A stretch of 64,000 nt of DNA from the NCBI RefSeq assembly GCF_004331435.1, contig NZ_SJKA01000002.1, positions 124,001 through 188,000 of the forward strand, read 5' to 3'. Positions 10,351 through 13,115 of this stretch are shown in pieces. Every line of letters begins with the position of its first letter. Position 1 is the stretch's first letter. The notes beneath the pieces are model-generated. The model was not told where the DNA came from and did no database searches. It saw nothing but the letters and a program-made list of their open reading frames with translations. The position numbers were made by a program, and so were the translations under genes. This DNA comes from Kribbella sindirgiensis. Its GTDB lineage: Bacteria > Actinomycetota > Actinomycetes > Propionibacteriales > Kribbellaceae.

Positions 10351-11637
10351 ATGCTGGACTCAACTCAAGGCGCAGTCGCACCGACGGCTGCTCGGACCGG
10401 ACCGACCCGCGTGCGGTGGTTCTTCATCGGCCTGCTGGTCATCGGCGGCGTCGTCAACTACCTCGACCGGGGCACGCTCGGCGTCGCGAACACGACGATC
10501 GCCGCGGATCTCGGCCTGAACACGATCGAGATGGGCGTGCTGCTGTCGGCGTTCGCCTGGCCGTACGCGATCGCCAACCTGCCGGCCGGATACCTGGTGG
10601 ACCGGTTCGGCGCGAAGGCGATGTACGCGTGGGCCGCGGGCCTGTGGTCGGTGATCACGATCATCACCGGCTTCGCGCGCAGCTTCTCCTTCCTGTACGC
10701 CGCCCGCGTGGCCCTCGGGATCGCGGAGTCGCCGTTCTTCACCTCCGGCCTCAAGGTCTCCCAGCGCTGGTTCCACAAGGACGAGCGGTCGCTGCCGCTG
10801 TCGCTGATCAACACCGGATCGCAGATCGCCAACGCGATCGCACCGCCGCTGCTGACGTTCCTGATGCTGACGATGAGCTGGCAGGGCATGTTCGTGGTGG
10901 TCGGCGCCTTCGGCCTGATCGTGGTGGCGGTCTGGATGAAGCTGTACCGCAACCCGACGGCCGCCGAGGAGGCCGCGATCAAGGGCCTCGGCGAGGAGGC
11001 CGCCGCCGAACGGCAGGCCGCGAAGGGCTCCTGGGGTTCGCTGCTCAAGCAACGCAACACCTGGTTCATGGTGATCGGTGCCTTCGGCATCTTCTACACC
11101 GTCTGGGTCTACCTGACCTGGCTGCCCGGCTACCTGCACACCAGCCGCGGGTTCAGCCTGACCAAGACGGGCTGGATCGGCGCACTCCCGTTTCTGTGCG
11201 GCATCGTCGGCGTCCTGACCGGCGGGCTGATCTCCGCGTGGGCGATCAAGCGCGGCGCCCGGACGCTCACGGCGCGGAAGATCCCGATCGTCGGCGGCGC
11301 GGTGCTCGCCGCGGCCGCGGTCCTGCCGGTCGCGTTCGTGCAGAGCGACGTACTGAGCATCACGCTGCTGTGCGTCGGGTACTTCGCGGCGCAGATCCCG
11401 ATCGGCGTGATCTGGACCCTGGCGTCGGACCTGGCGAAGCCCGCGCAGGTCGCGTCGCTGGGCGCCATCCAGAACTTCGGCGGCTTCCTCGGCGCGGCGC
11501 TCGCCCCGACCGTCACCGGCTTCATTCTCGATGCCACCGGCAACAACTACAGCCTGGTCTTCATCGTCGGCGGCGCACTGCTGCTGGTGGGCGCGACGTC
11601 GTACGGTGTGTTCGTGAAGGAACGTCGTGACTCCTAG
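10351..11637 (+). CDS. MFS transporter, ACS (sugar-acid/anion:cation symporter) type
   Basis: A 428-residue major facilitator with 12 predicted membrane helices in two bundles separated by a charged loop (residues about 190-225). The first-helix motif NYLDRGTLGVAN and the loop 2-3 motif GYLVDRFGAK are typical of the ACS family, which carries hexuronates, galactonate, glucarate and similar acids by proton symport. The ATG is preceded by AGGAG. Its place between an aldolase for keto-deoxy sugar-acid phosphates and a P-loop kinase supports sugar-acid import. The stop overlaps the kinase start by 11 bases. Confidence 0.92.
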   Translation: MLDSTQGAVAPTAARTGPTRVRWFFIGLLVIGGVVNYLDRGTLGVANTTIAADLGLNTIEMGVLLSAFAWPYAIANLPAGYLVDRFGAKAMYAWAAGLWSVITIITGFARSFSFLYAARVALGIAESPFFTSGLKVSQRWFHKDERSLPLSLINTGSQIANAIAPPLLTFLMLTMSWQGMFVVVGAFGLIVVAVWMKLYRNPTAAEEAAIKGLGEEAAAERQAAKGSWGSLLKQRNTWFMVIGAFGIFYTVWVYLTWLPGYLHTSRGFSLTKTGWIGALPFLCGIVGVLTGGLISAWAIKRGARTLTARKIPIVGGAVLAAAAVLPVAFVQSDVLSITLLCVGYFAAQIPIGVIWTLASDLAKPAQVASLGAIQNFGGFLGAALAPTVTGFILDATGNNYSLVFIVGGALLLVGATSYGVFVKERRDS

Positions 11638-12196
11638 GGTCTTCTTCGTGATCGGGCCGGCCGGCTCCGGGAAATCCACCGTGAGCCGGCAGCTGGCCCG
11701 GCGGTACGCCGCGACGTATCTGGACAAGGACACCGTGGCGACGTCCTTCACCGAGCTGCTGCTCGAGCAGAACGGTTCGGACAAGAACGACCGGGACCAC
11801 AACGCGTTCTACCAGGCGGCGATCCTGCCGCTGGAGTACGCGACACTGCTCCGGCTCTGCGCCGACAACCTCGACGTCGGGTGTTCCGTCGTACTGGATG
11901 CTCCGTTCGGCCGGTTCTTCGGCGATCGTGAGTACCTGCTGAAGGCGACCACCGGGTGGCCGGAGGCGCAGCTCATTGTCGTTCACGTCACCGCAGAAGG
12001 CCCGGTCGTCCAAGACCGGGTCGCGCGCCGTGGCTATGCCCGGGACACCTGGAAACTCGCGCACTGGGACGAGTTCTGGACCGGTGCGCAGACATCGTGC
12101 GACTGGGAGGGCGCCCTTCACATCCTCCTCGACAACTCCGCCGGCACGCTGGACCTGTCTGGTTTCGACGCGGCGCTCGCTGACCTGATGACCTAG
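11627..12196 (+). CDS. P-loop kinase (AAA_33 / gluconate-kinase-like)
   Basis: A 189-residue P-loop protein with Walker A GPAGSGKST at residues 9-17 and a single core domain of the size of gluconate and shikimate kinases. DKDTV near residue 33 fits the acidic substrate/Mg position of gluconate-kinase-like enzymes. The GTG start overlaps the MFS gene by 11 bases, so it is translationally coupled. It probably phosphorylates the sugar acid handled by this cluster, but family assignment is not certain. Its TAG stop (12194-12196) is formed by the CTAG boundary of the adjacent MITE-like element, so the original C-terminus may have been different. Confidence 0.8.
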   Translation: MTPRVFFVIGPAGSGKSTVSRQLARRYAATYLDKDTVATSFTELLLEQNGSDKNDRDHNAFYQAAILPLEYATLLRLCADNLDVGCSVVLDAPFGRFFGDREYLLKATTGWPEAQLIVVHVTAEGPVVQDRVARRGYARDTWKLAHWDEFWTGAQTSCDWEGALHILLDNSAGTLDLSGFDAALADLMT

Positions 12197-12360
12197 TGTC
12201 CTGAGTCGGAAGTTCGGCGAGAGATTTCGGTGGTCAGGTGCGTGCATCGGGGTGCTTGGTCAGTGGCCTCGATGCGGAGCATCGTGGGCGCTGGGCAAGT
12301 GCCGCGAGGTGCGTGCCTGGGCGCCGAAAGCGCCGTCGAACTTCCGACTCAGGACACTAG
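12193..12360. mobile_element. MITE-like element with 24-bp perfect terminal inverted repeats
   Basis: The 24 bases at 12193-12216 are the exact reverse complement of 12337-12360; the core is TGTCCTGAGTCGGAAGTTCG. Both ends carry CTAG, so the target duplication is TA (IS630/Tc1-like) or CTAG (IS5-like). The interior is about 120 bases with no gene, holding a small hairpin (CGATGC/GCATCG near 12269-12283) and two copies of GGTGCGTGC. It is therefore a non-autonomous element. It lies between two convergent genes and supplies the TAG stop of both. Confidence 0.85.
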
Positions 12361-13031
12361 TGGGTGGTGCCGCCGGCGACGATCTGCTCGGCGATCACCC
12401 GGAGCTTCACGTTTCCGTCCTGGGACAGCCTGGTGAGGAAGGCGAAGGCGCGGTCGTCGGTGAGCTGGTAGCGCTCCATGACGATTCCGACCGCGTTGCC
12501 GATCAGGCCCCGGGTGCGCACGGCCTCCTGCAGGTTGTGGATCTCCCGGGCGTAATCGATCGCCGTCGCGGCCTGGTGCTGGAAGAGCCGGCCGATCGCA
12601 CCGAGATCGCTGAACGCACCGGGCTCGCGGGCATACAGGTTCAGTGCCCCCCGCGACTTCGAAGCCTCGAAGAGCCGGATGCCGGCCTGGGCCTCGATAC
12701 CGGCGGCAACTGCTGTCACGGCGTAGCGCGGGAAGCGCGGATCGTCGTTCAGGTACGGCGACACGACGTGGACGGCATCGGCCGCGGCGTCGTAGCACGG
12801 TCCTTCCCGTAGCTCGTACTGCGCGGCATCGACGCCCCAGAGCAGCTCGTCGGTCGGCGCCACCGTTTCCAGGCGACCGTCGAAGTGCAGCACTGTCATG
12901 CTCGCGTAATCCACCTCCGGCAGCACCTCGACCGCCGCCGCAGTGATGCGCGCGAGCGTATGGTCGAGGTCACCGGGTGTGAGCGCCTTCGACAGGCGCT
13001 CTGCCTGCTCCAGCAACCGTTGCGTGTCCAT
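12357..13031 (-). CDS. GAF-ANTAR regulator
   Basis: A 224-residue protein. Residues about 10-150 are a GAF sensor domain. Residues about 165-215 are an ANTAR RNA-binding domain with NLQEAVRTRGLIGNAVGIVM, the conserved alanine/aromatic helix pattern and the FAFLTRLSQD segment. ANTAR proteins bind paired RNA hairpins and antiterminate transcription. The ATG at 13031 starts at MDTQRLLEQAE; an in-frame GTG at 13055 would add 8 residues. It is divergent from the GH20 hexosaminidase. The stop codon lies in the end of the MITE-like element. Confidence 0.9.
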   Translation of the reverse strand: MDTQRLLEQAERLSKALTPGDLDHTLARITAAAVEVLPEVDYASMTVLHFDGRLETVAPTDELLWGVDAAQYELREGPCYDAAADAVHVVSPYLNDDPRFPRYAVTAVAAGIEAQAGIRLFEASKSRGALNLYAREPGAFSDLGAIGRLFQHQAATAIDYAREIHNLQEAVRTRGLIGNAVGIVMERYQLTDDRAFAFLTRLSQDGNVKLRVIAEQIVAGGTTH

Positions 13032-13115
13032 CTGCGCCCGGTACCCATTGCGCACACGTCCGATGCCGCCGCGAATGACCTGGTGGTCCGCCCGGGTGTG
13101 CCGCAGAATCGTCGG

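Follow-up and report, generated by a model that had tools for sequence, protein, structure and literature searches.

Between two convergent genes of a Kribbella genome, we find a 162-bp element that folds over its whole length into a single hairpin, and we put at roughly 60% the probability that it is a non-autonomous mobile hairpin that entered a CTAG at its TA, the stop codons of both genes already overlapping there. We place it with the small palindromic mobile elements; no published description of this hairpin family was found in the open-licence PMC literature. What is conserved in this small mobile element is the shape of the hairpin, which can be separated from the sequence of its ends, and in Kribbella its orientation is tied to the replication fork. 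The case would also show how a mobile element can reside harmlessly within stop codons.

A hairpin spanning the whole element

The window, that is, the whole stretch of 64,000 nucleotides analysed here, carries the element on its + strand at 12196–12357, with G as its first base and C as its last; as this is the better-folding strand, we call it the sense strand. The TA on the left (12194–12195) and the TA on the right (12358–12359) would be the two copies of a duplicated target, judged from the empty sites of other copies and from the sequence. Within the element, and all on the + strand, an outer arm at 12196–12219 pairs with its partner at 12334–12357, the family-wide pattern being that the sequence of the arm varies and its complementarity is kept. 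Further in, the motif AGGTGCGTGC occurs twice as a direct repeat (12236–12245 and 12307–12316), its left copy pairing with the right one through G.T wobbles, and the tip of the hairpin, CGATGCGGAGCATCG, lies at 12270–12284 and is common to the two classes of the element in Kribbella, A and B.

An earlier note on this DNA had described perfect 24-bp inverted repeats with CTAG at both ends, and both are present: CTAG lies at 12193–12196 and 12357–12360, and the repeat is perfect over 24 bp and 96% identical over 27 bp. The terminal 19-mer, allowing up to three mismatches, matches the window twice, both times at the element, where shuffled sequences lead one to expect 0.02 matches. The extent given to the feature was incomplete, as a near-perfect hairpin spans the entire 162 bp between the TA duplications; a plain MITE with 24-bp inverted repeats is too small a description. 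Folded in full, the 168 nucleotides form one hairpin, with an energy of −132.6 kcal/mol (z = −17.9), and none of 200 shuffles is as stable. With DNA parameters, the stretch 12195–12358 reaches −74.3 kcal/mol on the sense strand versus −48.4 kcal/mol on the antisense strand.

Copies in Kribbella and in other actinomycetes

The genome holds four full copies at 95–100% identity, so that the further copies of the terminal repeat asked for as a check do exist, and the 15-base hairpin tip occurs in exact form another 27 times (31 in all). The element is non-coding and dispersed, and its copies have moved with target duplication, which upholds its description as a MITE-like inverted-repeat element. 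The copy at 12196–12357 is, going by its sequence, recently mobile, because it has an identical twin elsewhere in the genome (C44:43754–43921).

A scan of named genomes with a 20-base core returned at least 93 stretches. Among the 80 listed with names, 78 come from Kribbella, one from ‘Streptomyces sp. SID13031’ and one from a Sphingomonadales metagenome-assembled genome, in which the arms do not extend past 7 bp. In the Streptomyces record (L077), an element of the Kribbella type occupies the orthologue of the L137 site; the record may be a mislabelled Kribbella. The copies fall into two classes with a common tip, A (GTGTCC...GGACAC, which includes the copy at 12196–12357) and B (GGTCCTGTC... 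and variants). No terminal repeat is conserved across copies; within a class only the outermost bases are common. A covariance model of class A finds matches in 38 of the 38 Kribbella genomes searched (E ≤ 0.001), with 3–68 matches per genome among the best-scoring ones listed, many of them the two strands of one palindrome.

Under stricter E-value filters than in Kribbella, the same model matches 28 of the 255 non-Kribbella genomes searched in the order (E ≤ 1e-4, best-scoring matches listed) and, of 394 genomes searched at the level of the class, 24 that lie outside the order (E ≤ 1e-5). As the model mostly encodes a hairpin, distant matches were read individually. Twenty of the matches listed outside Kribbella were fetched, from five genomes of two other genera, and all are hairpins of 161–164 bp, with GTGCGTGC in both arms in 15 and CTAG at one end at least in 18. 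At the class level we read 26 loci, of which three belong to this order, leaving out L283 at a contig edge: the better strand lies below −100 kcal/mol in 23 of the 26, CTAG stands at one end at least in 20, and lengths run from 155 to 178. The family is present in some other actinomycetes too, with the same length and anatomy. Plasmid and phage sequences gave no match to the element, and four pattern matches in viral contigs include none with the element hairpin; there, one frame of the motif translates as EVRAWA, which belongs to an open reading frame in L348 and was read by eye in the rest.

Paired arms covary and wobble favours one strand

The outer-arm sequences differ among copies and their pairing is kept. 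In a gapped arm comparison (120 of 125 core windows were kept, the other five lying close to locus ends, and 118 of these 120 entered the pair statistics, L145 and L091 having no long arms), the outer arms of 118 aligned hairpins contain 2,473 Watson–Crick, 61 G.T, 5 A.C and 55 other pairs. Over the whole hairpins (n = 118), G.T pairs number 1,213 versus 109 A.C pairs. After near-identical copies were removed from two sets, A1 (30 of 42 copies kept) and A2 (37 of 76), the consensus folds have 70 and 69 pairs, with compensated changes in 38 and 34. Cells with a double change number 287 and 263 versus 70.6 and 58.4 in shuffles and 23–57 with slid partners, the structures having come from the same alignments on which they were tested.

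The inner stem keeps tandem UG/GU wobbles at a regular spacing, because each arm carries one copy of the direct repeat AGGTGCGTGC and the two copies pair with each other; these tandem wobbles and the inner mismatches are conserved across copies. Of 140 copies, 138 have the more stable fold on the sense strand, the mean difference being 20.4 kcal/mol in class A and 15.0 kcal/mol in class B (DNA parameters).

The same pattern holds for copies that have stayed in place. Thirteen orthologous resident pairs, 12 of them matched on both flanks and one on a single flank, and three from one three-species site, show 80 double changes versus 17.6 expected under independence. Leaving out L146/L334, which are highly divergent and may be a replacement, not a resident pair, there are 52 versus about 10 expected. 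One-sided changes in the resident pairs run between Watson–Crick and wobble in 60 cases versus three between Watson–Crick and A.C. At one site the element is resident in three species (L060, L074 and L119) with compensatory arm changes, and the site is empty in L094; these copies closely precede a gene that at its start, judged by eye, resembles NADH-quinone oxidoreductase subunit D.

Probable insertion at TA into a CTAG shared by two stop codons

All-against-all comparison of the loci yielded five orthologous empty sites, with a poor alignment for L158/L100. Two joints are clear. In one, the empty site reads CACGATAGGGG and the filled site CACGATA-[A]GTG...CAC-TAAGG; in the other, the empty site reads ACTAGATG and the filled site CTA-GTG...CAC-TAAATG. 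A TA duplication fits both; among the empty sites, those of L094 and L068 fit TA. In 140 copies (140 of 142 windows were used for the fold, flank and stop statistics; of 57 copies fetched from the genomes G028 and G024, the 31 with a tip close to the core entered), TA adjoins the left end of the element in 74, the right end in 67 and both ends in 40, and G comes first in 132 and C last in 132. We infer that TA is the exact target duplication. A 4-bp CTAG duplication may apply at CTAG sites; at the ATAG site of L094, TA is the better fit as the duplication.

On the left of the element, a P-loop kinase-like gene (11627–12196, + strand, 189 amino acids, Pfam AAA_33) ends in a TAG at 12194–12196, within the CTAG at 12193–12196; on the right, an ANTAR regulator gene (12357–13055, − strand, 232 amino acids, with a GAF_2 match under the Pfam cut-off) ends in a TAG at 12357–12359 on the minus strand, within the CTAG at 12357–12360. 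The sequence thus confirms that both stops sit in the CTAG boundaries, as had been noticed. When the element and one TA are removed in silico, the joined empty site reads GACCTAGTGGG and a CTAG is left, with the kinase still ending at amino acid 189 and the ANTAR protein at amino acid 232. Among homologues without the element, the nearest ANTAR protein (86%) has a last residue that aligns with the last residue here; for the kinase the agreement is only near, the two homologues that the search gave being 191 and 207 amino acids long versus 189 here. At another locus, seen filled (L084) and empty (L068), the adjoining gene ends in LVVRASTARARI followed by TAG in both states. The joined-site ends, the homologue ends and this pair together indicate that both TAG stops most likely pre-dated the insertion, overlapping in one shared CTAG.

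This locus is one of several of its kind: at least one flanking gene has a stop made of the target TA and the first G of the element in 41 of 140 copies, and both do in 5 of 140. As a control, 445 of 17,647 TA dinucleotides of the same loci are gene stops, a figure that counts intragenic TA too, where insertions would be lost. A natural empty site for the kinase/ANTAR locus was looked for and none was found. A strong kinase orthologue is present, among other Kribbella genomes, in two only (G012 and G013), with no ANTAR gene adjoining it in the fetched stretch, and none of the fetched ANTAR relatives has the kinase adjoining.

In Kribbella, orientation follows the replication fork

With the origin placed at dnaA and the terminus assumed at its antipode, 91 of the 92 copies mapped in 10 complete Kribbella genomes have their folding (sense) strand as the leading-strand template. 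In two of these the sense strand is + on the lower-coordinate arm and − on the other (36 of 37 copies in G028 and 20 of 20 in G024), which by fork geometry makes it the leading-strand template; L326, in this set, is a weak copy with its strands nearly tied. In another eight genomes, for which sizes were taken to the nearest 0.1 Mb and of which one is in two contigs, 35 of 35 best-scoring copies fit. In another genus (G248), four of the seven copies listed fit the polarity by model strand, five of the seven having been energy-checked, and in G046 three of three fit, two of them energy-checked. L249, L251 and L253, all from G248, are near-identical and presumably recent, and one of them breaks the Kribbella polarity.

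In this draft genome, GC skew on the + strand of the window is negative in eight of eight bins, and on the sense strand it is negative at 23 of 30 of this genome's own loci, 61 of 79 loci of named genomes and 23 of 31 complete-genome loci. The share of flanking coding bases on the sense strand is 0.51, 0.51 and 0.42 in three sets, and the window has 29 genes on + and 16 on −; with so little strand bias in the flanking genes, the replication reading gains no support from the direction of the genes.

Proposed mechanism and alternatives

We propose that at the ancestral site the TAG stops of the two convergent genes overlapped by 4 bp in CTAG, and that a non-autonomous element whose length hardly varies (162 bp plus the duplicated TA) entered at the TA. 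Neither protein would have changed, because the G at its start and the C at its end rebuilt TAG on both strands; likewise, an insertion into any TAG or TAA stop would give TA+G, again TAG. Arms that vary yet stay paired, wobble confined to one strand and fork-dependent orientation together suggest that a folded single strand is recognised or tolerated. An enzyme would recognise the folded sense strand by the inner AGGTGCGTGC motifs, the tip hairpin and the TA at the ends, and would carry it to TA sites; copies with the folding strand on the lagging-strand template would either never be made or be lost, which could account for the polarity. The searches for IS630-type and Y1 enzymes yielded no transposase or recombinase tied to the element. 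Of the IS630-type DDE_3 domain, this genome has only a fragment at a contig edge, and an IS630 source for the element is not evident; a Y1 (HUH) transposase occurs in one of 38 Kribbella genomes and not in this one, which makes IS200/IS605 or RAYT machinery unlikely.

The TA-type target, inverted ends and many copies would also suit an ordinary double-strand MITE, moved in trans by a transposase that acts on terminal repeats and duplicates TA or CTAG, with the palindrome as an extended terminal repeat; a 433-bp CTAG-flanked palindrome in the genome even has the same outermost bases. We nevertheless regard this as rather doubtful, since widely varying ends that stay paired, wobble on one strand only and fork-dependent orientation in Kribbella are none of them expected if only double-strand end sequence matters. 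Selection on the transcript is the main functional alternative: the hairpin would be kept at gene ends for what it does as RNA, in termination, mRNA stability or processing, a role proposed for the hairpins of ERIC and NEMIS, and mobility would be secondary. The strong RNA fold, the G.U-type conservation and the frequent location at gene stops speak for it. We think it unlikely, however, as orientation tracks the fork, and as tandem genes on either side of a copy are antisense to its sense strand in 30 cases and in the sense direction in 16 (by a rough GC3-based gene caller, with 24 of 118 undecided), so that the better fold is absent from most read-through transcripts. Moreover, where the earlier note had seen a possible bidirectional terminator, the only terminator-like consensus in 11600–13100 lies at 11629–11641 and none at the element, which lacks a T-run, and Rfam 15 has no family above threshold, giving three matches in 11500–13100 of the window, all under the gathering threshold, and none reaching threshold at six element loci.

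Replication itself offers another route to paired arms, as template switching can correct quasi-palindromes and would keep the arms complementary with no selection on the fold. The orthologues do show concerted arm changes, the fully paired double changes outside L146/L334 being 13 of transversion type versus 30 of transition type. Template switching could yield concerted arms, but not inner mismatches and tandem wobbles that are conserved instead of corrected, nor the great excess of G.T over A.C, and we give it little credence. The earlier note had the insertion bring new stops and so redefine both C-termini. Both TAGs do straddle the element boundaries, and elsewhere the element has changed a protein end: between L056 and L055 the left gene end is kept and the right one altered, and in this genome a class B copy (L144, about 1426–1588; G000:C4 about 210668) truncates a Ku-like gene whose reading frame is uninterrupted in its relative L088. 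For the kinase and the ANTAR regulator, however, the joined empty site leaves both ends unaltered. Homologues without the element stop where the ANTAR protein stops and close to where the kinase stops, an outcome that the earlier note had itself named as a refutation, and the claim is very hard to sustain here. The other outcome that it named, a lack of further copies of the repeat, is contradicted by the copies found.

Relation to known systems

Returning to the mobile hairpin that we favour, its hairpin would be handled as single-stranded DNA, as are those of IS200/IS605 and REP/RAYT, which likewise show a replication-strand bias. The polarity of the element is opposite to the lagging-strand-template preference of IS200/IS605, and unlike both systems it has a TA duplication and 37 of its 38 carrier genomes lack a Y1 transposase. 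RUP-like MITEs are mobilised by an IS630 element and share the TA target, whereas this genome has only the IS630-type fragment.

ERIC, Correia/NEMIS and RUP are described as short, non-coding and dispersed near genes, with TA termini, target duplication and a long stem-loop, and with defined terminal repeats of 24, 7 and 9 bp (PMC2229807). As far as this description goes, the Kribbella element is like them in size, TA termini, hairpin, multiple copies and lack of coding, and differs in arms that vary and covary over about 25 bp, in its one-strand wobble and in its fork-following orientation; the passages on the three elements there make no mention of these last features. In integrons, the attC strand that is active when folded stays the one that templates leading-strand synthesis, an arrangement believed to restrict folding (PMC11023631). 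On that account, a folded single strand as the object and its place on the leading-strand template are common to both, but the Kribbella element is solitary, about 164 bp long and flanked by TA duplications. The main text of a 2024 review of prokaryotic MITEs contains neither the word Actinobacteria nor the word Streptomyces (PMC10969869).

We tentatively raise the possibility of an actinomycete-wide mobile class in which a non-HUH enzyme reads a folded single strand, the ends are largely free in sequence and the fork dictates orientation. If true, attC-like logic would extend to solitary transposable elements whose G/C ends rebuild TAG on landing in a stop codon. Arm covariation and fork polarity make the handling of bacterial palindromic repeats as folded single strands testable.

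Related palindromes

Two further palindromes of this genome stand apart from the full copies. At L026 (about 1411–1589; G000:C44 about 437563), a shortened hairpin has a single AGGTGCGTGC, as if the part between the repeats had been deleted. At L043 (1497–1929; G000:C50 about 391799–392223), a second type of CTAG-flanked palindrome, of 433 nucleotides, folds at −358.5 kcal/mol; its outermost bases resemble the class A ends, similar ends occur at L038/L045 and L028/L041, and palindromes of this type possibly share their moving machinery with the hairpin element.
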